From the IMG/VR virus record IMGVR_UViG_3300031857_021280, positions 1 through 62,910 of that record: 62,910 bases of DNA. One strand, given 5' to 3'. The position numbers and the translations under genes were made by a program. The number at the start of each line of letters is the position of its first letter. The stretch's first letter is position 1. The notes under the pieces were generated by a model, which worked only from the letters and a program-made list of their open reading frames with translations, made no database searches and was not told the origin of the DNA. The DNA is from a virus. This document shows positions 17,820 through 46,165 of this stretch, piece by piece.

Positions 17820-18098
17820 ATGAAGAACAGAAAAGTATATGTGTTAAGAACTGGAGGACTTTCTAAAATTGATAATCGGTTTCATTTTCACGATATTGAA
17901 GTTTTTTCTTCTGATAAAAAAATTAATTATGAAGTCAGAAAAAGAATTGAAATTAATAAAGGAACTAATGTCAGACATGACGAAGGATTCTGTGGTTATG
18001 GAACATATCAAAATACCTTGATTACTTACGATTCAATAGATATTGATGAAAATCCAATAACAATCAGATATGAATTATTAGAAAAAAAGTTAAATTAA
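17820..18098 (+). CDS. Small protein of unknown function
   Basis: The protein has 92 residues and is not recognised. It is basic at the N-terminus (MKNRKVYVLRTGG) and beta-rich afterwards, without signal peptide or membrane segment. A host-type promoter element ends 21 nt before the ATG, which suggests early expression separate from the virion genes upstream. It overlaps the convergent 18095-18814 gene by 4 nt. Confidence 0.6.
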   Translation: MKNRKVYVLRTGGLSKIDNRFHFHDIEVFSSDKKINYEVRKRIEINKGTNVRHDEGFCGYGTYQNTLITYDSIDIDENPITIRYELLEKKLN

Positions 18099-18814
18099 AG
18101 AATAGATAAAATACTCTTTACAAGAAAATCAACAGATTCCTTTTGAGTTCTTTTCTTTTTTGGTTTATATGATGTCATTACAGGTTTTTGTCCTTTTCCT
18201 GTTTGTGTATCTTGTTTTTCCGCTTTTCTTTTTTGTTGACATGCTGCTCTTTTTTGTACATCTGTCATGTTTCTTGCAACACCTACGGCTCTACATTTAG
18301 GATAACCCTTCGATTCACCTTCAGGTCTACCACACGGTGGATGTCCTCCACCTTTCTTTTTCCTACAAATGTTAACCCAAGGACCTTGTGGTTGTTTAGT
18401 ACCTTTACCTTTCTTTTTTGTTCCAAACCATACTGCCAAATCTTCATTTAAAACAATTGAATCCAAATCAACCCATTCTTTTAATGGAACAAACTTCAAG
18501 TTTTTACCTGGTGTTTGATTTATTATTCCACCATCTTCGTCGTTAGGTGTTTTGTGTTTTTTGTTATATAAAGATATTTTTTTGGCTTTAGTTTCAAGAC
18601 TTTTAGCCTTTTTTTTACTCATATCTAATGAACCGTCATAACTATCATATTCTAATTCGGCATTGAAGAAATTAGATACTTTAGTATCGAAAGGTCCAAG
18701 TTCTTGTTTACCCCAATCGATTTCACCCATAGACAAAGGTCCGTTATATGAACCGGCATACCTATCGGAATTTGCTTCTTTAACTACTTTTTTTATTATA
18801 TTATTTAAGTCCAT
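18095..18814 (-). CDS. Putative internal head protein with basic Cys-containing domain
   Basis: The protein has 239 residues. It starts MDLNNIIKKVVKEANSD, the same leader type as the 17319 protein; here the putative processing site is V-K-E|A. The middle holds LAVWFGTKKKGKG. The C-terminal region, with GPWVNICRKK, GGGHPPCGRPEG and GYPKCRAVGVARNM, resembles a conserved basic domain of large phages and viruses (DUF5872-like, from memory). The high Lys/Arg content suggests DNA binding. It is the last gene of the minus-strand block. Confidence 0.6.
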   Translation of the reverse strand: MDLNNIIKKVVKEANSDRYAGSYNGPLSMGEIDWGKQELGPFDTKVSNFFNAELEYDSYDGSLDMSKKKAKSLETKAKKISLYNKKHKTPNDEDGGIINQTPGKNLKFVPLKEWVDLDSIVLNEDLAVWFGTKKKGKGTKQPQGPWVNICRKKKGGGHPPCGRPEGESKGYPKCRAVGVARNMTDVQKRAACQQKRKAEKQDTQTGKGQKPVMTSYKPKKKRTQKESVDFLVKSILSIL

Positions 18815-18856: not shown

Positions 18857-20833
18857 TTATTGTTTATAAACTCTTTTCATTGAACCGTCATCATAAACTT
18901 TGAAATAAACACCTGTTGCAGACATAACATCAATTTCTTGTCCTGTAATATTAATATACTTTACCACTTTTTTATCTAAAGACACTATGTTAAAAAATTC
19001 AGTAGTTCCATCATAGTCAGTTTGTGAAAGTCTATAATAATTAATCATATTTCTTGAAAATGTTTCATCTGAATATGAATAAGAAAGTTCTTGTGTTGAT
19101 TGCCCTGCGGCAACTATTTTTGTCACTTCTTCCCAATTTTCACCATCATTAGACCTTTCCAAGGTAAAATAGTTATTGTTGTGTTCAGAAGCAGTTAACC
19201 AATATAATAAGTTACTACTACCATTATTAACACCATCAAAACTTATTAATTCTATTGGTAACGCACTTATTCTTGATACTGTTACGTTTCTACAATTAGC
19301 ATCATCTAAACAATACCCATTTGCATTTATGTGAACATAGTAAGTTGCATTTATTGATGCCGTAAAATCTAAAGGAGATGAACCATAAGAAACGACTGTT
19401 CCGTTAGGTGTTGAAACTGTAACTGTAACCCAATCAGTAGGTATACTTGATAATACAGTATAAGTTACTCCAGCAACACCATTATTCCATTGGCTATATT
19501 CATCTGTGTATTGTCCATTACCCGCTGAACACAATGTGGTTACGTCAGGTGTTGTGGTTGTTGGTAGGTTTTCTACACTCCAAGCTGTTGTATTCAAACA
19601 AGGACCTGGTGGTGGTGGAGGTGAACACGTAAATGCTAAACTAAAAGTTGATGTTGTACTATATCCGTGTACAAGTATAAAATATGTTACACCTGGTGTT
19701 GAAGTCCAAGAATACGATGCTGCAGTCCCCGTACACGACGGTCCGTTATCATCTATACCACCTACACAAACAGGTGTTGTACAAGAACCTTGAAACACTG
19801 ACATCTTACTGTCCCAAGCTGTGACACACAGAGATGCGGTCATTACATCTCCGGTGCCAACAACTTTATACCACACACCTCCCGTCGTTTGTGTGGTCCC
19901 ACAAGAACCTCCTTCACCTGCACCTGTTAGGGTTGAACCCACAGTAGTTCCCCCGACTAATGAACCACAAGTAATTGTAGTCGCATTACATATTAAATCA
20001 TTAGCAGGTGCAACAATTGGACAACCCAAATTAAATGTTACATTATATGTACCTGTTGTTTCAGGGTCTAAAAGAATATAATATGTAACACCAGCAGTAA
20101 ATGTCATTGGGGTTACTCCATTAAAACTTCCTGTAAAGCTAATGTCATCAATACAGTTCCACCCTGTACTACCACACCCACCTGACGCAGGTTTCCAAAA
20201 GAAATCAACGTATCCTCCTGTGATTGATGTCACATTAAGAGTATATGTTCCTGTCTGAGTAGGTGTGAATTGGAATATTCTTTCTTGTCCTGGTGTTGAA
20301 AATCCACAGGTACTGACATTCCACCCTGCCCCTCCACCTGACATTGTTGTAGAAACATTAGTTCCACAACTTGCAATTGTTGTAATCGAAGAACAAGGAT
20401 TATATACAGGAGCACAAGTGACTCTGTAACTTAATATTGTTGTTGCACTTAGATTTGCACAACTATAATTTGTAACAAGTATTGAATACGTTCCATTTGC
20501 AGGACAAACCCAAGTAAGTGATGCCTTTGTTCCACCACAAAACGGACCGTTGTCGTCATTCTGAGCCAATACAGTTCCACCTGTAGCGGTTGAGTATAGT
20601 CTTAAATATGTATCATTTGTAAACGCACTATTACAAGTAGAAAAATCGTAAGTACATCCAGCTGTTGCCGTGAATCTCCAATACCTTTTTGCTGATGATG
20701 CGTTTGACACATTTTGGAATGTCCCTGTTGGTGTAATAACACCCATATTCACAAGACCTGTTGTTGAACAAAATTGTGAAAGTAGATTAAAATTTACTAA
20801 TAACGTAAATAGGAGTAATGCAAGTTTTTTCAT
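18857..20833 (-). CDS. Exported multidomain surface protein with T9SS-type C-terminus
   Basis: The protein has 658 residues. A signal peptide (MKKLALLLFTLLVNFNLLSQ) is followed by three beta-sandwich repeats of about 120-130 residues, resembling bacterial pre-peptidase C-terminal domains (for example LRLYSTATGGTVLAQNDDNG and GTYSILVTNYSC). A Pro-rich linker and another beta domain follow. The end has the hallmark ALPIELISFDG, LLYWLTASEHNNNYFTLERS and a short C-terminal region (ITGQEIDV, GVYFKVYDDGSMKRVYK) typical of Bacteroidota T9SS cargo. It should be exported across the host outer membrane. It has no obvious phage-structural homology. Confidence 0.75.
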   Translation of the reverse strand: MKKLALLLFTLLVNFNLLSQFCSTTGLVNMGVITPTGTFQNVSNASSAKRYWRFTATAGCTYDFSTCNSAFTNDTYLRLYSTATGGTVLAQNDDNGPFCGGTKASLTWVCPANGTYSILVTNYSCANLSATTILSYRVTCAPVYNPCSSITTIASCGTNVSTTMSGGGAGWNVSTCGFSTPGQERIFQFTPTQTGTYTLNVTSITGGYVDFFWKPASGGCGSTGWNCIDDISFTGSFNGVTPMTFTAGVTYYILLDPETTGTYNVTFNLGCPIVAPANDLICNATTITCGSLVGGTTVGSTLTGAGEGGSCGTTQTTGGVWYKVVGTGDVMTASLCVTAWDSKMSVFQGSCTTPVCVGGIDDNGPSCTGTAASYSWTSTPGVTYFILVHGYSTTSTFSLAFTCSPPPPPGPCLNTTAWSVENLPTTTTPDVTTLCSAGNGQYTDEYSQWNNGVAGVTYTVLSSIPTDWVTVTVSTPNGTVVSYGSSPLDFTASINATYYVHINANGYCLDDANCRNVTVSRISALPIELISFDGVNNGSSNLLYWLTASEHNNNYFTLERSNDGENWEEVTKIVAAGQSTQELSYSYSDETFSRNMINYYRLSQTDYDGTTEFFNIVSLDKKVVKYINITGQEIDVMSATGVYFKVYDDGSMKRVYKQ

Positions 20834-20969
20834 ATGACCTTTAATTTTGTGGGTTTAAAACTAAAGTCACACTTGAAGAACCTTGTGGTGGAACCCCCAT
20901 CTACCATGGGCCGGTCGTGTCTTTACTATAAATAGAAAGATATACGTAAAAATACGTAGTGAAAATACC

Positions 20970-21000
20970 AAAAAAGGGGTGAATTATCATACACCCCTTC
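20970..21000 (-). terminator. Intrinsic terminator after the 21026 gene
   Basis: On the minus strand the sequence is AAGGGGTG, a 10 nt loop, CACCCCTT, then a run of T. The GC-rich stem and U tract are typical of rho-independent termination. It separates the 21982 gene from the 20833 gene, which must have its own promoter. Confidence 0.8.
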
Positions 21001-21025
21001 TTGTTTAATATTTAACAGTTAATAA

Positions 21026-21982
21026 TTAATATTGATAAGTTTTAACAAATTCACCATTTTTATAATAAATGATAACTATCCCTTTATAATATTCGTTAAC
21101 TTCTTTACCTGACAAATCAACAATTTTTTCGACTTCTTTTTGATGTCTGTTATCAATTGCTATTATTGGATATACTTTTGTTTTACCGTCAAAATCGTAT
21201 TGAATAAGTCTATAGTAATTAATTACATTTTCTACTTTCATGTCAAGTAAATCATAATCTATAATGTTTTGTGAATATCCTGAACCCAAAATATTTCCAA
21301 CAATTGTTGAATTTTTAAAATCACCTGTGGTTGTTTTTTCGATTATAAAGTGACTTGAATTAAATTCTGATGCCGTTTGCCACTTCAATAAGTTAAAACC
21401 ATCTTGTTTTACACCATCAAAATATGTGAGTTCAACAGGCAAAGATACAGGACTTGTTAATGTTATATCATCAATTCTGAATTGAGTTGATGTTGATGTT
21501 TGAGTAAATCTAATTCTTAAGTTATTAGTAATTGGAATTGTTCCTGATGGACTTATTAATCTCCATATTGCCGTTCCACCTCCAGTTGGACGACTATAAG
21601 ATAAAGTTGTATAATTAATACCATCCGAACTAACTTGTATTAATAATTCATTATTACCAGCTATTGTACTTTTGAAATGATTTAATGTTAAAAATACTTC
21701 AGAATACGTTGATGTGTTGATTCCTGAAATTGTAAAACTTCTTGGTGTGGAATTTGTAAAAAAAACATTAGCATTGTCATCATTTGGTGTTGGTGAAGAT
21801 GGTTGTGTCCTCCTTACATCTACATTTCCTGTGTATGTAATTGGGCTTGAATTTTGCCAACCATTAAATGAACTGACAGAAGTGTTAGAAGTTACTGTAC
21901 CAAAATTTTCAGAATAGATGGTTGTTTGGGAAGATAGAATTTGCGAAACCATTAACGCAAACATTAACAATAAATTTTTCAT
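21026..21982 (-). CDS. Exported beta-sandwich protein with T9SS-type C-terminus
   Basis: The protein has 318 residues. A signal peptide (MKNLLLMFALMVSQILSSQ) precedes a jelly-roll-like domain (IYSENFGTVTSN, SFNGWQNSSP, then FRIDDITLTSP), as seen in carbohydrate-binding or choice-of-anchor type domains. The end repeats the pattern LPVELTYFDGVKQDG, LLKWQTASEFNSSHF and a short C-terminal strand region (IVDLSGKEVNEYYKG, EFVKTYQY). It has its own promoter-like -7 element and terminators on both sides, so it is a monocistronic unit. It shares the leader AATTAAA(A)GGTCAT with the 20833 gene. Confidence 0.75.
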   Translation of the reverse strand: MKNLLLMFALMVSQILSSQTTIYSENFGTVTSNTSVSSFNGWQNSSPITYTGNVDVRRTQPSSPTPNDDNANVFFTNSTPRSFTISGINTSTYSEVFLTLNHFKSTIAGNNELLIQVSSDGINYTTLSYSRPTGGGTAIWRLISPSGTIPITNNLRIRFTQTSTSTQFRIDDITLTSPVSLPVELTYFDGVKQDGFNLLKWQTASEFNSSHFIIEKTTTGDFKNSTIVGNILGSGYSQNIIDYDLLDMKVENVINYYRLIQYDFDGKTKVYPIIAIDNRHQKEVEKIVDLSGKEVNEYYKGIVIIYYKNGEFVKTYQY

Positions 21983-22007
21983 TATATGACCTTTTAATTA
22001 TAAGTAT

Positions 22008-22015
22008 CAAAAATA
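22008..22015 (-). promoter_or_regulatory. Bacteroidota-type -7 element for the 21982 gene
   Basis: On the minus strand the sequence is TATTTTTG, matching TAnnTTTG, about 25 nt before the ATG and just after a terminator. A TTG at the expected -33 distance is not seen, so the support is partial. Confidence 0.45.
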
Positions 22016-22041
22016 TAAGAAAACAATGTTAATTTTAAATT

Positions 22042-22065
22042 AAAAAACCCCCAAATTCTTGGGGG
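22042..22065 (-). terminator. Intrinsic terminator after the 22130 gene
   Basis: On the minus strand: CCCCCAA, GAAT as loop, TTGGGGG, then TTTTTT. It is a strong hairpin with a U tract that ends the 23576-22130 transcription unit. Confidence 0.85.
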
Positions 22066-22129
22066 ATTTCTTTTTTGTGGAACCAACAATAATCAAAGAA
22101 TTATTATTCTTTTTTCGACTTTGTTATTT

Positions 22130-22726
22130 TTAATTGTTTGAAATTGTATTTTGTTGAAAACCTTGTGTATTAGGGTTATATGAAGACGGAAAACCACTTG
22201 CGGATGGTTGATCGATTATAATTCTCTTATTATACACACAACCATCAATCGCCGTTATTTCAATATTGTATATTCCTGCCGTTAACAAAAATTGATCTTC
22301 TTGATTTGGGATAATACCTGAGCCATTGCCAGTCCAATTATATGTAGCAGTACCGTTTAATATTGTGACATCCGCAGAACCATTATTTCCACCAAATGTC
22401 GTAACGTCAGTTTTTAATATTTGTATTACCAACGGTTGTGGATCTGTCAATGTTAAAGTAGCAACTGAAGAACTCAAATTAGAGTCGGTTACATCAAAAA
22501 CATATTGTCCACCAGATAAATTAGTTGCAATAAACTGAGTTCCATTTATCTGTAAACCATTTATTGTGTAAGGTTCAACACCTCCTGTTATATCAATAAT
22601 AATTTCTCCGTTATTGTACCCGTTACATGATGGGTCTATTTTGGTTGTTTGTAATGACATCTGTTGTGAAAATGATACAGATACCGTTAAAAATAATGAT
22701 GCTAATGTGATGATTAAATTTTTCAT
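22130..22726 (-). CDS. Exported protein with SprB-like repeats
   Basis: The protein has 198 residues. A signal peptide ends near VSFSQ. Two repeats of about 75 residues follow: PSCNGYNNGEIIIDITGG with LSGGQYVFDVTDSN, then TTFGGNNGSADVTI with LTAGIYNIEITAIDGC. These match the SprB-type repeat of Bacteroidota surface adhesins. There is no C-terminal sorting domain; the protein ends in a Ser/Asn/Gln-rich tail. It stands 22 nt after the 22749 gene, so the two are co-transcribed. It may interact with its neighbour or be periplasmic. Confidence 0.7.
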   Translation of the reverse strand: MKNLIITLASLFLTVSVSFSQQMSLQTTKIDPSCNGYNNGEIIIDITGGVEPYTINGLQINGTQFIATNLSGGQYVFDVTDSNLSSSVATLTLTDPQPLVIQILKTDVTTFGGNNGSADVTILNGTATYNWTGNGSGIIPNQEDQFLLTAGIYNIEITAIDGCVYNKRIIIDQPSASGFPSSYNPNTQGFQQNTISNN

Positions 22727-22748
22727 GTTCTTTTTTTTATTTTAATTA

Positions 22749-23576
22749 TTAAAGTATAGTTATTCTTTTTGTTTCTGTTCCTTTTTCTGTTGTTACATAA
22801 ATCATATAGATACCTGTTTTAAGATTATCAACATATAATTTTGATAAAGATGATTTGTCGTTATAAACTTCTTCACCATTGATTGTATTCACAATTCTAA
22901 TTTCACTTACATTTTCTTTAGTCTCTATTGTGAAATTACCATTTGATGGGTTTGGATAAGTTGAAATGGCTGATGTGTTGTTAGAAATACTTGGACTAAT
23001 CAAGTTAGGATTGTTAAGAGTTGGTAATGATGGGTTTGGTTGTGAAATTGTAAAATAACCGATTCCTACACAACCAATAGAATCTGTAACCATTATTTTA
23101 TAATAACCTGAAGTTAATCCTTGTTGGTCTAAATTACCTTGGTTTTGAAAACTACCACCCGCAGTAAACCATTGGTAAGTAAATGAACCTGTTGTATTTG
23201 AAATATCTACAATATCTATTTGTCCGTTAGACAAACCAAAAGAAGTTACATTTGATTGTGTTCCTGAAATTGTGATAGGAAGTGGATTGTCAACTGTAAG
23301 AAATGCTGCGATTGTACTGTTGTAAGAATCTGTTACAGTTACTGAATAATTTCCTGCCGAAAGATTTGATATCGTTTGAGTGGTATCACCATTACTCCAT
23401 TGGTAAGTATAAGGAGGAAAACCACCTGAAGGAAGTGCGGTAATTTCACCATCAGAAAAGTTAACACAAGTTGGGTTAGTTTGAGAAACCCCAAGATTGA
23501 AAGGTACTTTAGTTTGTGCGAATGTTACAACTGTTAGAAGTGTAAAAAGAATTGTGTTTAAAATTTTTGTTTTCAT
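22749..23576 (-). CDS. Exported SprB-repeat protein with T9SS type A sorting domain
   Basis: The protein has 275 residues. The signal peptide ends at VTFAQ. The first repeat (PTCVNFSDGEITALPSGG, YTYQWSNGDTTQTISNLSAG) is a clear SprB-type repeat and a second follows. The last 75 residues, with STYPNPSNGNFTIETK, IRIVNTINGEEVY and LKTGIYMIYVTT, are a canonical T9SS type A sorting domain. The product should be secreted and anchored or released at the host surface. A homologous promoter block precedes this gene and the subtilase gene. Confidence 0.85.
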   Translation of the reverse strand: MKTKILNTILFTLLTVVTFAQTKVPFNLGVSQTNPTCVNFSDGEITALPSGGFPPYTYQWSNGDTTQTISNLSAGNYSVTVTDSYNSTIAAFLTVDNPLPITISGTQSNVTSFGLSNGQIDIVDISNTTGSFTYQWFTAGGSFQNQGNLDQQGLTSGYYKIMVTDSIGCVGIGYFTISQPNPSLPTLNNPNLISPSISNNTSAISTYPNPSNGNFTIETKENVSEIRIVNTINGEEVYNDKSSLSKLYVDNLKTGIYMIYVTTEKGTETKRITIL

Positions 23577-23610
23577 TTTTTTTATTTTTTAATTGTTAGT
23601 TATTTTTTGT

Positions 23611-23679
23611 TTCTACAAATATATAGGTGATGTATGTTGTTAAATCCTGTTTTCGGAGGGTAGGTATTTTGAAGTTCAG
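23611..23679 (-). repeat. Upstream block homologous to 25776-25844
   Basis: This 69 bp block aligns along its whole length with the block before the subtilase gene. On the plus strand both have TTCTA, then AATA, ATAGG, then TTTT, GG and GGTATTTT ending in TTCAG. On the minus strand it ends in a -7 element. It is a duplicated promoter and operator region shared by two T9SS cargo genes. Confidence 0.6.
23616..23623 (-). promoter_or_regulatory. Bacteroidota-type -7 element for the 23576 gene
   Basis: On the minus strand the sequence is TATATTTG, an exact TAnnTTTG, about 40 nt before the ATG. An ATTT stands where the -33 TTG is expected. The subtilase gene has TATCTATTG at the homologous position. 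Confidence 0.55.
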
Positions 23680-23707
23680 TAGTTGTTATTAAAATGATTA
23701 AGTGTTA

Positions 23708-25759
23708 TTACTTAACAACTAACTTTTGAGTTACATTATTTACTGTCACAAGGTAAACACCTTCACATAAATCACTTACAGACACCTCACCGATAAAGGT
23801 AGATTGAGTTACAACAATTTGTCCGTTGATGTTTGTGATTGTTAAGTTACAATCATCATCCTTACCTGTTTTAATCGTTACAGAACCATTTGAAGGGTTA
23901 GGGTATACAAGTAGTTCATTTGAAGTTAATTCACTCACAGATGAGGTATTTTGGGTGTTTAACATTGTATTCTCAGAAGTCATACAACCATTTGCGTCTG
24001 TTACAAGAAGTTCATAGAATCCTTCAGAAAGATTATTTAAGTTTTGTGTTGTGTCACCATTGTTCCATTCGTAAGTGTATGGTAATGTTCCACCATTAAC
24101 TGTAATGTTAATTGAACCATCAGAAGTGATTGTAGGGTTCACAGAAGTTATGTTTGATACAAGTAGTTCAGGTTGTCTTACACTTAAAGTGTCAGAGTGA
24201 ACACAATCAAATCCATCAACAACTGTAAAAATATAATTACCTGAAGTTAAATTTGTTAAAGTGTTACCAACAACACCGTTATTCCATACAGCATCAGATA
24301 CAAATTCACCACCTGAAATGTTTACAGAAATTTCACCATTTGACATCCCAAAACATTTTACGTCAGAAACCAAAGATTCACTTGTAATTTTTTCGTATTT
24401 TTCAACATAAACTGAATCAGTAAATCTACAACCATTCGAATCAACAATTTGAACTAAAACAAACCCGTCGTTTGATACTGAAATTGTTTCGTTAATATCA
24501 CCATTCATCCATTCATAGTTATAAGGTGTTGTTCCGTCAAGGTTCAATACAGATACAATCTTATCTCCTGACACACAATCAACATTAGTTTTGAATGTTC
24601 CACTGATTGTGTTGAATTCTTTTGCCATTTTCACAGCCAAATGAGAATTCAATGTTCCTGCTCCAAGTAATCCCTGATAATTTGGGTTAATTAAATACAT
24701 ATCAGAGTTTGCGGTTTCTTTTAAGATATACTCAATATTATCAACAGTTAAACAAGGATTAACAGATAACATAAGAGCGACAGTTCCTGAAACAAAAGGA
24801 GATGCAAATGAAGTTCCATTTCCTGTGACGTATACCCCAGGTGAAGTAGTTAATGGAACGTCATATCCTGGTGCACAAATATCAACCATTGAATTGTGTT
24901 GGTGAGTTGTGTTTGGGTCTCCCATGAATCTTTCGTGGTTATTTGCAAACCCCACAGATGAAACAGATATTACGTGGTTGTATGAAGCAGGATAAACAAG
25001 ATTAAAAGAACCACCACAAGTAGAACCATTTCCTGCTGAAGCAACAATTACAGTTCCGTTAGAATAAACCTCATCAATTACCATCTGAGCATATGAATTG
25101 AAAGAACAAGAAGATGCCCAACTTGCGTTTATAACTTTAGCTCCTGAATATGTGGCATCAAGCATTTCATTATAAGACATTGTTCTTAGTTGTAATCTTG
25201 AATTATAACCAATAGATGAAGTTCCAACAGTGTTATTAGTATTTCCACCTGCAATTACAGCAACTGCAGTTCCATGTCCGTAGTTCGTGTTTGTATTGTT
25301 TAATGTAATGTAATCATATTTTCCTGTTAAATCTTCGTGATTAACGTAAAAGTTAGCGTCAGTAATAGCAATAGTCACAGTTGAACCTTTTGTGTAATCC
25401 CATGCCTCTTTTGAACCAATCATATCAAGTGCCCACTGATTTGGAACGACAGTGTTATAATCGTTTGGAGTTTCTAGTGTTTGATAGTCAGGACCCACTT
25501 CAGGGTTCACAAACAAATCGTTTCTTTTTTTAAGTGATTCAACAATAACTGTAGAACTTACATTTGATTGTAATTCATATACGTTTTGAAGTGTTTGACT
25601 TTTTGATGATGGAAACGCCTTTTCAACAGAAGTAATGTTTAGTGTTTGTAGTTCAGTTCTTACTGACTCAATGTTTGGAATTGTAACCCATACTCTATTT
25701 TGAGCGAATGTGGTTAACATTGTTAAAGTTGTTGCGATTGTTAAAAATACTCTTTTCAT
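23708..25759 (-). CDS. Secreted subtilisin-like (S8) serine protease with T9SS sorting domain
   Basis: The protein has 683 residues. A signal peptide ends at about residue 20 (TTFAQ). An N-terminal propeptide-like region follows. The catalytic domain has all active-site residues: Asp134 (TIAITDANF), His162 (GHGTAVAVIAGG), the oxyanion Asn244 (SAGNGS) and Ser317 (GTSFASP). Three SprB-like repeats follow (for example YEWNNGDTTQNLNNLSEG), then a T9SS type A sorting domain (LLVYPNPSNGSVTIKTG, GVYLVTV). It should be an active secreted protease at the host surface. It lies directly after the capsid gene and its terminator. Confidence 0.88.
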   Translation of the reverse strand: MKRVFLTIATTLTMLTTFAQNRVWVTIPNIESVRTELQTLNITSVEKAFPSSKSQTLQNVYELQSNVSSTVIVESLKKRNDLFVNPEVGPDYQTLETPNDYNTVVPNQWALDMIGSKEAWDYTKGSTVTIAITDANFYVNHEDLTGKYDYITLNNTNTNYGHGTAVAVIAGGNTNNTVGTSSIGYNSRLQLRTMSYNEMLDATYSGAKVINASWASSCSFNSYAQMVIDEVYSNGTVIVASAGNGSTCGGSFNLVYPASYNHVISVSSVGFANNHERFMGDPNTTHQHNSMVDICAPGYDVPLTTSPGVYVTGNGTSFASPFVSGTVALMLSVNPCLTVDNIEYILKETANSDMYLINPNYQGLLGAGTLNSHLAVKMAKEFNTISGTFKTNVDCVSGDKIVSVLNLDGTTPYNYEWMNGDINETISVSNDGFVLVQIVDSNGCRFTDSVYVEKYEKITSESLVSDVKCFGMSNGEISVNISGGEFVSDAVWNNGVVGNTLTNLTSGNYIFTVVDGFDCVHSDTLSVRQPELLVSNITSVNPTITSDGSINITVNGGTLPYTYEWNNGDTTQNLNNLSEGFYELLVTDANGCMTSENTMLNTQNTSSVSELTSNELLVYPNPSNGSVTIKTGKDDDCNLTITNINGQIVVTQSTFIGEVSVSDLCEGVYLVTVNNVTQKLVVK

Positions 25760-25775
25760 ATTGTTAAATTTTTGG

Positions 25776-25844
25776 TTCTAACAATAGATAGGAGTATATT
25801 ATAGTAGAATCCCCTTTTTGAAGGATGGGTATTTTTGATTTCAG
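25776..25844 (-). repeat. Upstream block homologous to 23611-23679
   Basis: This is the second copy of the shared promoter block, immediately before the subtilase gene. It contains CCTATCTATTG on the minus strand, where the other copy has CCTATATATTTG. Similarity extends about 60 nt further upstream of that element, more than a core promoter needs. Confidence 0.6.
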
Positions 25845-25908: not shown

Positions 25909-25935
25909 AAAAAAAGGGGAATTTACATTCCCCTT
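25909..25935 (-). terminator. Intrinsic terminator after the major capsid gene
   Basis: On the minus strand: AAGGGGAAT, a short loop, ATTCCCCTT, then TTTTTG. The hairpin with U tract lies 27 nt after the capsid stop codon and insulates the T9SS cargo genes downstream from capsid transcription. Confidence 0.85.
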
Positions 25936-25961: not shown

Positions 25962-27773
25962 TTATCTCAATTCTCTTAAATCGAATGTACGTACACCATC
26001 AACTGTGATACGTCCGTAGAAACGGTTATTAACCATTTTCTTAGCGTATCTTGTCATAATACCTTTGATAGGTGTGAAGTTGAATGGATTGTACATTGTA
26101 GGTGTTAATTGTAGAGGTACATACGGTGCGTAAACATAACCTGTGTCAAGTAACGATGTTCCTTTGTGTCCAATCAAAACTTGGTTTGGTGGGAAGTAAG
26201 GATCACGGTATACTTGATAACGTCCTGCAAGAGTACCAACTCTTTCAATACCCATGTTATACTGATCTTGCTCAGGAGATGCATTAGATACGTGGAAGTA
26301 TTCTAAATCATCAAAGATTGCTGAAACTTCAGAAGATACAACGATCCAGTTAGCACCACCTCTTAAAGTAGATTTGTGGATTTGTGCTGACAATTGGTTG
26401 ATTGCTGTAATCAAAGTTTGGTTCCAGTCTTTTTGAGTGTAAGAAGTTTGGTTAGCAATTCTTCTCCATCCGTTGTAATCCCAACGAAGGTTCCATGCCG
26501 CTCCTTTACGTAAGTCACGTAAAATTTCACGATCGATTTCTGCAGCAACTTGTTCAGACAATAAAGCTGTCAATTCAGCTTCAGCATCAATGTTGTGGAA
26601 TGCAGAAACGTCTTGTGCCAATTCAGGAGACCATTGTGCTCTTAATTTTCTTTCTGTTACAGATACAGTAACTGACTCAAGGTCGAAAGAAACTTCACCG
26701 ATAGCATCTTCAAATTCAAGTTCCGCATATCTTCTATAAGTTGCAGAAAATGCAGTTCCTGAAGTCACAGCAGAAAGGGTTGCTCCTGTGTAACCATCAA
26801 GTGAAGTAGCGTTACAGTCAGCACATACAGGACAAGAAAGATCCACTTCAAGGAAAATACAACCATCTTGATCACAAATGTTATCGTAAGAACCACCATT
26901 TCCGTTAGGGAATGTAGTAGATACTTGTGAATAAGTAGGACTAACAATACCTTTACCATATTGTTGAGTAACAACTCTAAATAATAAAGAACCTGTTCCT
27001 ACTGTACAAGGTGAGTCAGCACTTACACCTAAACCAGCACCTTTAGTGATTGTTAAATCAGAAAGGAATGCTTCAGTATCGATTTCAGAACCATCAGGAC
27101 CCATAAGTTTACCAACACCAGCGTCATAGAAACCACACATTTTGATAATTACTTTTCTTACTCCTGTTGTTTCATAATCAGTTTCGTTAGGTACTAAATT
27201 ACCATTACTCCAAGAAACTGTAGTAGTAGGAGAAGTCACAGCAGTCCATCTTCCTTTAGAATAATCGAAAAGTCCTGGAGGATCTAATCCAGCTTCAGCC
27301 CCTTCGTAAAATAAATCATAAAGATTTTTAGCGTACTGTGTACCGTCATTATATCCAGTGTTAGTAGTTGCGTTTGAACCTGGTGCACCAATTGGTTGGT
27401 TGTGAATTGCACTTGTGGTAGGATTTGCAGTTGTGTAACCTTGGATTTTAGGTACGAAGTAGAACAATTTACCAATAGGTAAGTTCATTGCTTGTACAGA
27501 AACGATGTCGTTAGCCAACAATTTAGAGAATACACGACGAACGATAGGGAAAACTACAGTTTCGAAAGAACCTGAACTATCAGTTGACGCGGCTTCGTTA
27601 ATTAGGTGAGACGCTTGGTTTTCATATAATTGTGCCATGTTCTCTTTGATGTGTCCTTTAAGACCGTCTAGGAATCCTAATTTATCCCATTTGTTAATTG
27701 TATCTTCTTTGATAACTTTAAGGTGCTTAAGACCGATGTTACCAACAAGACCTGATTCTAATAATGCTCCCAT
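25962..27773 (-). CDS. gp23: Major capsid protein, gp23-like
   Basis: The protein has 603 residues. The N-terminal 60 residues form a helical propeptide ending SHLINE, followed by AASTDSSGSF. This matches the gp21 cleavage site of T4 gp23 (after a Glu near residue 65). The region after it, ETVVFPIVRRVFSKLLANDI, is the conserved start of mature T4-like capsid proteins. Later segments (LRAQWSPELAQDV, HNIDAEAELTALLSEQVAAEIDR split by family gaps) and the C-terminal MTRYAKKMVNNRFYG also fit. It follows the scaffold gene by 33 nt and precedes a strong terminator. It forms the head shell. Confidence 0.92.
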   Translation of the reverse strand: MGALLESGLVGNIGLKHLKVIKEDTINKWDKLGFLDGLKGHIKENMAQLYENQASHLINEAASTDSSGSFETVVFPIVRRVFSKLLANDIVSVQAMNLPIGKLFYFVPKIQGYTTANPTTSAIHNQPIGAPGSNATTNTGYNDGTQYAKNLYDLFYEGAEAGLDPPGLFDYSKGRWTAVTSPTTTVSWSNGNLVPNETDYETTGVRKVIIKMCGFYDAGVGKLMGPDGSEIDTEAFLSDLTITKGAGLGVSADSPCTVGTGSLLFRVVTQQYGKGIVSPTYSQVSTTFPNGNGGSYDNICDQDGCIFLEVDLSCPVCADCNATSLDGYTGATLSAVTSGTAFSATYRRYAELEFEDAIGEVSFDLESVTVSVTERKLRAQWSPELAQDVSAFHNIDAEAELTALLSEQVAAEIDREILRDLRKGAAWNLRWDYNGWRRIANQTSYTQKDWNQTLITAINQLSAQIHKSTLRGGANWIVVSSEVSAIFDDLEYFHVSNASPEQDQYNMGIERVGTLAGRYQVYRDPYFPPNQVLIGHKGTSLLDTGYVYAPYVPLQLTPTMYNPFNFTPIKGIMTRYAKKMVNNRFYGRITVDGVRTFDLRELR

Positions 27774-27806: not shown

Positions 27807-29399
27807 TTATTTTATTTTTGTCATCAAATCCTTCATTCTTAAGAATTGTGGATTTTCATACGTTTTACTTTCGATTAGATTTGTTGATGAACCATTAGAT
27901 GGTGTTTTAACAACTCGTCTTTCGATAGATTCTTTTATTGTATTAGATGAACCTTTTCCATCTAATTCTGTTTTAATTGTTTTGTACAAAGATTTTGATT
28001 CTTTCAAAGTATCGACTTCGTCAAATCTTCTAAGAATGTTAATCTTTTCTTGTTTAGTAGTTGAATGTTCAGTGAACAATCTTGTTGAATACGCCAAATT
28101 GGAATTAAATACAGCAACTTCATTCAATTTGTTTCTAAAGAAGTCAAGAGCCTTTTTGTACTCTTCATTTTTTTCTCTTAAAACATTGATTTCATTTTGT
28201 ACTGATTCAGAATGAACACCGTTTTCACCGTAAACTAAGTTTCTGTTTGGAGTGACCCCTTTTCTTAAGCCTCTACCACGTTTAGAACCTTTACCATATG
28301 TTCTAGCAGCTTCTTTTGTTTCTGCTTCTTCTTCATGGTAATCCATTCCTTCGTTGTATTCTTCTTCATTCCATTCTTCATCCATTTCTTTATCTTCCAT
28401 TTCAGTAACACCATGTTTGATTTTTGGATATTTAAACTTCGGACCTTTTCTTTTCAGATTTTCACCTTGTTTTTTATCATCCTTGAATCCTTTGTCGTTT
28501 ACTTCCATTTTAGAAAAAGTTTTCATCGGTTTTCCAAAACCAAGTCCAACAGCTTTGAATGCCTCCATTACGGATTCCAAATCTTCTTCATCGATTTCAT
28601 AAACTGTTTCTTCTTGTTCTTCTTCTTCGTCCATGTACATACCTTCAAATTCTTCTTCTTCGTCCATGTACATACCTTCAAATTCTTCTTCTTCGTCCAT
28701 GTACATACCTTCAAATTCTTCTTCTTCGTCCATGTACATACCTTCAAATTCTTCTTCTTCGTCCATAAACAAATTAAAGTCCATGTTTTCTGATTCTTCA
28801 ACTTCTAACTCATATATCACATTTTCTGCCATTTGAGTTTCTTCTGTTTCTTCGGGTTCATCACCAACACTTATAAGATATTCAACATCCTTTTGATTAT
28901 CTGACAAATGGATATAATCATCGTCTTTTTTAACAATGATTCCATCTTCATCACCCATCGCTTTGAATACTTTCAAAATTTCTTCAGGGGAAGCTGATGT
29001 CATATCAAGTGGTGGCATTTCATTACCCGTTTCATTATCACCCATCATAGGTTCTTCTAGGTCGGAAAAATCGCCTACTTCTTCATCACCTTGCGGTTCA
29101 TTAAATTTTTCTACCGCAGAAAAGTCAATTTCCTCACCTTCAGGTTCAACTTCCGTTTCGTCTTCTAAGTCAACATCAACTTCTTCTTCACCTTCTGGTT
29201 CTTCAGGAGCGTCTTGTTCCCGTAGATTTTTTTTGTAACCACCTAATGATTCTTTTACTAATTCACTGATTTCTTCCTTCATAGTTGAAGCAAGTATTCC
29301 TTTTGCGTTTTCATTGATAGCGTCTTCAAGGTTCTTTATTTGTAATAAAGCCTCTTCAACTACCGATTTATTTTCATTTATTCCCATTTTTAAATGCAA
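27807..29399 (-). CDS. gp22: Prohead core scaffold protein, gp22-like
   Basis: The protein has 530 residues. The start may be the ATG at 29399 or, more simply, the ATG at 29387 (MGINENKS). The N-terminal 50 residues are helical. Residues 60-290 are extremely acidic and include a tandem 11-residue repeat (MYMDEEEEFEG). The C-terminal 150 residues, with KLNEVAVFNSNLAYSTRLF and KINILRRFDEVDT, match the conserved end of T4-like gp22 scaffolds. It lies between the protease and capsid genes as in T4. It is larger than T4 gp22 (269 residues), mainly because of the acidic insertion. It should be degraded by the protease during maturation. Confidence 0.85.
   Translation of the reverse strand: MHLKMGINENKSVVEEALLQIKNLEDAINENAKGILASTMKEEISELVKESLGGYKKNLREQDAPEEPEGEEEVDVDLEDETEVEPEGEEIDFSAVEKFNEPQGDEEVGDFSDLEEPMMGDNETGNEMPPLDMTSASPEEILKVFKAMGDEDGIIVKKDDDYIHLSDNQKDVEYLISVGDEPEETEETQMAENVIYELEVEESENMDFNLFMDEEEEFEGMYMDEEEEFEGMYMDEEEEFEGMYMDEEEEFEGMYMDEEEEQEETVYEIDEEDLESVMEAFKAVGLGFGKPMKTFSKMEVNDKGFKDDKKQGENLKRKGPKFKYPKIKHGVTEMEDKEMDEEWNEEEYNEGMDYHEEEAETKEAARTYGKGSKRGRGLRKGVTPNRNLVYGENGVHSESVQNEINVLREKNEEYKKALDFFRNKLNEVAVFNSNLAYSTRLFTEHSTTKQEKINILRRFDEVDTLKESKSLYKTIKTELDGKGSSNTIKESIERRVVKTPSNGSSTNLIESKTYENPQFLRMKDLMTKIK
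28617..28768 (-). repeat. 33-bp in-frame tandem repeat in the scaffold gene
   Basis: Four complete, apparently identical 33 bp units (about 28617, 28650, 28683 and 28716) are followed by a partial fifth. Each unit encodes the acidic 11-residue block MYMDEEEEFEG. The near identity suggests recent slippage expansion. Confidence 0.9.
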
Positions 29400-45722: not shown

Positions 45723-46139
45723 GGGGGTGGTTTTGGATTTGACAGGCATTGGCTGAAGAATAAGGGCACGTGGGGACTGAATTAATCTCCTTAAAAACTG
45801 ATTCAAGTTGCAAATGGCGACGTTTTAGAAAACCTTTCAGTGGTTGGTTTAATTTCAACTGAAGAAGTTACTGTAGCTTAAGTTAAGCACGGAAACGGGG
45901 GGTCGGTGGACATATAACCTAGCAACAGAAGTCTTTACAAAGGTGTGGTTTCTACCCGAAAAGAAACAAACGGTCTCGTTCAGAGTGCTACCGTAACAAA
46001 AGTGAACTCGACACAGTTGTTGGTAACAATGTCAAAATAGGAACCAAATATTTTGGAAGGTATGAAAAACCTTAACCTAAACGTGTAGTCCTTATCTGAC
46101 AGGATGTTATGGACCGGAGTTCGACTCTCCGCACCTCCA
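45723..46139 (+). ncRNA. ssrA: tmRNA (SsrA) with an unusual long tag
   Basis: The acceptor stem GGGGGTG (45723-45729) pairs with CACCTCC (46132-46138) and contains a G3-U wobble, the alanine identity element; the discriminator base is A. The T arm is CGGAG, TTCGACT, CTCCG (46115-46131). Helix 2 pairs ATAAGG/CACGT (45760-45771) with ACGTG/CCTTAT (46081-46095). CCA is not encoded. The resume codon GCA is at 45810, preceded by AGTT. The tag runs to TAA at 45879-45881 and has 23 coded residues: it begins ANGDVLENLS and ends ISTEEVTVA. Pseudoknots were not resolved. Bacteroidota host tags are usually short and end in LAA. Confidence 0.93.
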
Positions 46140-46165
46140 CGCCGGAAGTTTTGTACTTATCGCCA

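Follow-up and report, generated by a model that had tools for sequence, protein, structure and literature searches.

The window, i.e. the whole stretch of DNA analysed, is an entire IMG/VR virus record of 62,910 bases. It contains five consecutive minus-strand ORFs, P1–P5 (18857–25759 by ORF coordinates), which adjoin a gp23-type capsid gene. The features of this region are given below in the order of transcription.

25962–27773, minus strand: major capsid protein of the gp23 family (PF07068, 250.6 bits; phrog_138), the upstream border of the slot
25914–25935, minus strand: terminator-like hairpin in the gap between the capsid gene and P5 (hairpin scan)
23708–25759, minus strand: P5, 683 aa, with signal peptide, subtilase, SprB repeats and type A sorting domain
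23711–23908, minus strand: type A sorting domain of P5 (TIGR04183, 46.5 bits; PF18962)
22749–23576, minus strand: P4, 275 aa, with signal peptide, SprB repeats and type A sorting domain
22755–22958, minus strand: type A sorting domain of P4 (TIGR04183, 41.5 bits)
22130–22726, minus strand: P3, 198 aa, with signal peptide and SprB repeats; sorting domain not found
22048–22065, minus strand: terminator-like hairpin in the gap between P3 and P2 (hairpin scan)
21026–21982, minus strand: P2, 318 aa, with signal peptide, jelly roll (MAM/CBM-like, low-confidence model), FN3 and short tail
21029–21178, minus strand: short C-terminal tail of P2, ~50 aa, three strands (tail alignment, model)
20928–20934, minus strand: TATTTAT late-promoter-like box at −101 of P1 (motif scan)
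20862–20924, minus strand: structured leader RNA 5′ of P1 (leader model R1, 76.6 bits; covariation)
18857–20833, minus strand: P1, 658 aa, with signal peptide, beta domains (284–403 PPC-like), FN3 and short tail
18860–19009, minus strand: short C-terminal tail of P1, ~50 aa, three strands (tail alignment, model)
18095–18814, minus strand: conserved gene closing the slot in relatives (48 of 79 loci have a homologue 3′ of the capsid gene)

The window belongs to a T4-like phage, because its capsid protein is of the gp23 family and its portal and terminase match phage families in profile searches. The same islet with its flanks was found in two longer records of 229,188 and 142,668 bases, with small indels relative to the window. 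P1 has 663 residues there and 658 in the window, and the gene 5′ of the capsid gene encodes 519 and 530 residues, respectively. Since these lengths differ, the longer records do not merely repeat the assembly of the window. With islet and flanks shared by these records, the misassembly that the preliminary description wished to see checked is excluded. The gene before the capsid gene (27807–29399, minus strand) contains an acidic tandem repeat with one more unit than its counterpart in L003, the contig that matches the window (530 vs 519 aa). Terminator-like hairpins were located at 12 sites in the region, compared to 3.7 expected in shuffles; those of the islet lie 3′ of the capsid gene and 3′ of P3. 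The sigma-70 promoter scan of the islet was uninformative (38 sites vs 38.8 in shuffles).

All five proteins start with a Sec signal peptide, as judged from the sequence and by our heuristic on L003, which bears out the earlier reading of the islet as a row of signal-peptide genes beside the capsid gene. The background of the heuristic was 26 of 653 ORFs in similar phage loci not following the leader RNA; five positive ORFs in a row are therefore far from chance. The two clear type A sorting domains of the type IX secretion system (T9SS) claimed at the outset were recovered in P4 and P5, where PF18962/TIGR04183 scored above the curated cut-offs of Pfam and NCBIfam. The same databases returned no such domain in P1, P2 or P3, which were not filed as type A cargo, and P3 has no recognised sorting signal. 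SprB-like repeats, likewise claimed for three proteins, exceeded the PF13573 cut-off of 28 bits in P3 (33.5 bits), P4 (62.7 bits) and P5 (47.1 bits). P5 also contains the intact subtilisin-like protease (S8) noticed earlier, with a PF00082 score of 96.9 bits and the catalytic Asp134, His162 and Ser317. The closest relatives of P5 within the family of a Fluviicola MAG, the only family compared, were 38–51% identical among the matches listed.

P1 and P2 were described by AlphaFold models with mean pLDDT near 65. In the fold search, P2 residues 18–178, a low-confidence model region, resembled MAM/CBM jelly rolls (Z ~ 10–11), and residues 179–279 were recognised as FN3. P1 residues 284–403 resembled the PPC-type collagen-binding domain of ColG (1nqj; Z 11.7, rmsd 2.0, 93 residues), and its residues ~ 525–621 form another predicted FN3 domain. 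Such shared folds in predicted models would not, by themselves, show a function. Taken together, the signals make the export of the islet proteins well supported at the sequence level, and the functions discussed below are proposals.

P1 and P2 end in a tail of ~ 50 residues that is unseen by Pfam and NCBIfam. The preliminary description had credited both proteins with the LPxEL..TASE region and the terminal strands of T9SS cargo. The region is present, and the AlphaFold models predict three terminal strands (P1 622–657, P2 283–316), whereas a database sorting domain is absent. Gly23 and Gly33 are invariant in the tail alignment, and the end of the tail is basic; in one alignment the P2 row lacks the first Met. 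The assignment of the glycines to motifs B and D is our own reading of the available part of PMC11969387. The tyrosines of these motifs are mostly replaced in the tail alignment, with GVY in P1 and GIY in the locus L057. None of the 14 short-tail regions matched PF18962 or TIGR04183 at E 0.1, and the short tail gave no accepted match to Pfam, NCBIfam or PDB chains; a single PDB match with E 0.79 was not used. The profile–profile comparison of short and long tails, made with two small alignments, gave an hhalign probability of 0.4. Fold searches are a poor test of the tail, and the matches listed cover other domains.

The viral tail search confirmed 269 places, and 80 loci were kept. The LPVEL pattern picked out 72 ORFs there, of which 71 carry the short tail at their end and one is cut off. 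The 49 ORFs with the LPVEL pattern in bacterial loci comprise 30 with a YPNP-type domain, 5 with a short ending (one of them merely truncated), 13 with other endings and 1 open case. One N-terminal family of leader-bearing phage proteins has 42 members, of which 13 end in the short tail, 12 in a long PNPS-type tail and 1 otherwise, whereas 16 are cut off. Two of its proteins, from L258 (long tail) and L279 (short tail), are 77% identical over 400 residues. Tested alone, 7 of 7 long tails match PF18962; the whole L258 protein falls slightly short of the curated thresholds, with 18.3 bits against 27 in Pfam and 21.8 against 23 in NCBIfam. Because short and long domains exchange within one cargo family, the short tail appears to act like a sorting signal, and we regard this exchange as the strongest sequence evidence for such a role. 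The missing profile match to the long tail and the loss of most tyrosines are counterpoints.

A comparable ending is known from Prevotella intermedia, in which short CTDs of ~ 40–55 residues with three predicted strands were shown experimentally to be cleaved, according to the available part of PMC11969387. They agree with the P1 and P2 tails in length, number of strands, conserved glycines and basic end. In contrast to the P. intermedia CTDs, the tails presented here occur in phages and Flavobacteriales MAGs, and their motif tyrosines are mostly replaced. The same portion of that paper names P. intermedia as the sole species observed with short CTDs. A phage short tail that escapes Pfam and NCBIfam was not found described in the literature searched, and we consider it novel.

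In Flavobacteriales MAGs, short tails also occur on contigs whose neighbouring ORFs read as ordinary chromosomal genes, and they reach six or more per bacterial genome. Within the family of the Fluviicola MAG, 30 of 80 genomes have them (E up to 1e-10), as do 34 of the 249 genomes of its order (1e-12) and 1 of 296 across its phylum, namely the centre itself (1e-8); these searches differ in limits and first-look depth and used an alignment that includes tails from the Fluviicola MAG. This distribution may serve as a hint to the host rather than a proof, and the host was probably a member of Bacteroidota, order Flavobacteriales. SprA occurred in 229 of 296 genomes across the phylum. It failed as a discriminator of tail-bearing genomes: 11 of 12 genomes matching the tail contain it, and so do 3 of 4 without a match. 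We must also note that L142 (CP034120), titled Glaciecola amylolytica, contains both SprA and short tails and may thus be mislabelled or mixed.

The islet occupies a variable slot between the capsid gene and the conserved gene at 18095–18814. The slot was defined as the interval from the capsid gene to the homologue of that gene, and was followed in the 80 loci kept from a capsid search, reduced to 79 by dropping L044, in which the capsid match is cut off. Both borders are present in 48 loci, many of the loci being near duplicates, and the other 31 were left out as incomplete. At least one short-tail cargo gene is found in 15 of the 48 complete slots; the other 33 have none, so this cargo is dispensable. 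Ten of the complete slots were flagged for an HNH endonuclease resembling the one in L038, and further ones hold other proteins, some with a signal peptide yet without the short tail. A subtilase was flagged in two complete slots (L003 and L005), and the slots of L006 and L037 also have one. Since the tails are short, counting cargo in the relatives with Pfam alone was misleading: 50 of 81 records were taken, and PF18962 appeared in only 3 of them. We also observed a hydrophobic membrane-like protein of ~ 152–159 aa encoded directly 3′ of the short-tail cargo gene in L004, L005, L039, L040, L046 and L065, a possible partner of this cargo.

The heptamer TATTTAT, which we take to resemble a T4 late promoter, lies within 80 nt 5′ of 20 of the 57 ORFs in the window, compared to 3.2% of 2,000 random 80-mers. 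In relatives, 38 of 58 distinct cargo genes also have it in the 100 nt before their start. The box is absent within 80 nt of P1–P5; that of P1 lies at −101, before the leader. Expression of the cargo would probably be late.

The leader is a 63-nt element on the minus strand, 5′ of P1. Four N-terminal families have genes with this element in front of them in the cargo loci; in the 80 capsid loci it was found once, in L003. A cargo-independent pattern scan of viral contigs found 81 stretches, 78 of which were tested; 71 match the covariance model with 50–86 bits and represent 39 distinct sequences. In the alignment of these 39 sequences, which was fitted to the structure, all 544 of 544 cells pair and four pairs change on both sides, a result reached by 0 of 500 shuffles, whereas slid controls paired in 33–60%. 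Double changes were also returned by RNAalifold for the first ten leader sequences. The 5′ part of the leader is 80% identical across 12 loci, compared to 35–37% in the flanks.

The leader is associated with genes for putatively exported proteins. An ORF starts close 3′ of 63 of the 71 matches, and 60 of the 63 are signal-peptide-like by the heuristic, as opposed to the background of 26 in 653; the remaining three (L284, L311 and L332) are signal-peptide-like by eye. The complete leader-following ORFs (n = 39) end in a short tail (26), a long tail (12) or otherwise (1). Exactly one leader copy was found in 22 of 31 records, none in 9 and two in none, with the strictest first look scoring up to 150 places per record and most records having been chosen for their leader. 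The element reaches LR745206, an uncultured phage of 634,780 bases, where the ORF behind it is small, looks exported and has no recognised tail. This was among three named-phage records matched in blastn and was confirmed by the covariance model; the two Acinetobacter matches were taken as chance. The leader had no Rfam match at the gathering score, and none of 399 bacterial genomes from the order of the Fluviicola MAG contains its exact pattern. Covariance-model matches in 4 of 150 bacterial genomes scored 24–26 bits, which is about the chance level, and were rejected, given the 50–86 bits in phage loci.

Reading frames across the leader run through to the cargo gene in some phages and meet a stop in others, and the linker varies by one base; judged by eye, an RNA is thus favoured over a peptide. 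It may act in translation control, in mRNA protection or as a recombination joint. No leader RNA of this kind was found described in Rfam or in a limited literature search. The element at 20862–20924 may merit study apart from T9SS. In a 436-kb contig (L324:170–7571), a run of exported genes behind the leader encodes an Ig-like protein with a long tail, a glycine-rich protein, a PKD protein and a T9SS type B protein. Elsewhere (L309:5325–6968, minus strand), SprB repeats and a T9SS type B domain are combined in a phage protein encoded beside a leader-bearing cargo gene.

SprB itself is a large protein with a role in gliding. P3–P5 share its repeats, and the type B (CHU_C) domain occurs in two other leader-bearing phage loci, one of them with SprB repeats; in contrast to SprB and type B proteins, the proteins of the window are small and have a type A domain or none. 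S8 proteases are also encoded by other phages, e.g. Bacillus phages (phrog_3677); the protease part of P5 is at most 31% identical to phage subtilases among the matches listed. The statement that no phage set of this kind had been described did not hold, as Bellas et al. (2020; PMC7468147), in the available part of the paper, report on Cryophage, in which three genes encode T9SS type A sorting domains, and already propose a role in superinfection exclusion or competition. As in our islet, the type A cargo lies in variable regions and is thought to use the system of the host. Cryophage differs as a 76 kb circular Bacteroidetes phage encoding an endoglucanase, a GH39 protein and a PA14 protein; the term SprB is absent from that paper, and short tails and a leader RNA were not seen in the part available. 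Phage T9SS cargo is thus already known, and the slot, the phage short tails and the leader RNA are additions that we did not find described in the literature searched. The original interpretation stands as regards a real phage islet of exported T9SS, SprB and subtilase proteins; it overstated novelty and was incomplete on the swap slot and on the gene class marked by the leader RNA.

We propose to read the islet as the swap slot of a T4-like phage whose host belongs to Bacteroidota, probably Flavobacteriales. The proteins would be exported by the host Sec system and then by its T9SS, P4 and P5 using the standard type A sorting domain and P1 and P2 the compact three-stranded tail as a substitute. 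P1 would be expressed from behind the late-promoter-like box and the conserved structured leader. At the surface or outside, where the proteins would presumably end up, the subtilase would cut back surface proteins of the host, and the modules resembling sugar-binding and PPC domains would, together with the FN3 and SprB modules, form a coat on the infected cell. The main effect would be less adsorption, so that other phages are kept out and progeny do not stick to infected cells or debris. The gliding machinery is a likely phage receptor in Flavobacterium, according to the available part of PMC7345892. As a whole, a host-exported, surface-remodelling swap slot is the explanation we consider probable, with some reservation. 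The genes, domains, slot, tail exchange and leader structure with its association to export genes are observed in the sequences; late timing, passage through T9SS, surface location and host are inferred. Its least certain part is the superinfection role, to which we give somewhat less than an even chance. The preliminary description had offered receptor clearance, a superinfection block, release of progeny and decoration of the cell as possible functions.

It is less probable that the islet aids release and spread, with the protease and binding proteins loosening capsule, surface layer or biofilm and a superinfection block not being the purpose. The intact triad and sorting domain of P5 and the other subtilases in the slots of L005, L006 and L037 are consistent with this reading, but a subtilase was flagged in only two of the 48 complete slots and most cargo is non-enzymatic by its domains, which leaves it rather unlikely. 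Slightly less likely again is a benefit to the infected cell in attachment, feeding, competition or grazing resistance, like that of other auxiliary genes. The adhesin-like FN3, PPC-like and SprB modules, the close bacterial relatives of P5 and the variable slot content would fit; however, the cargo genes tend to share the box of the structural genes and are probably late, and a gain for the host would be short-lived. Decoration of the virion, with SprB-like Ig domains sitting on the head like Hoc, is suggested by weak matches to phrog_2973 (Hoc-like head decoration; 0.003 for P3, 1.3e-6 for P4) and by the adjoining capsid gene. Nevertheless, SprB/PKD-type Ig domains readily give such matches, and the signal peptides on all five proteins and the sorting domains on P4 and P5 make this role improbable. 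An assembly chimera with host DNA, to which the host-like domains might point, is practically excluded by the two further records with islet and flanks and by the comparable slots in relatives.

The surface-remodelling slot may also be one case of a wider surface-display module in Bacteroidota phages, from T4-like ones to one of 635 kb. Such a module would consist of a box, a one-copy phage-specific leader and an interchangeable exported protein, with a T9SS signal often shrunk to the database-invisible three-stranded tail, and the leader would serve the exported cargo in cis. We advance this generalisation tentatively, as an idea with nearly balanced chances. If true, some phages systematically exploit the surface-secretion machine of the host during infection, which would offer a testable route for a lytic phage to alter the host surface and would explain the variable genes beside the capsid gene. 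T9SS cargo would also be under-counted, as short tails escape the standard profiles. Moreover, the leader RNA provides a handle to find export genes in unannotated phages and to ask why a structured leader is needed.

Outside the islet, the window contains a tmRNA gene at 45723–46142, plus strand (Rfam RF00023, 97.3 bits), for which ARAGORN predicted the tag EKKQTVSFRVLP; the end of this tag is unusual for a bacterial-type tmRNA.
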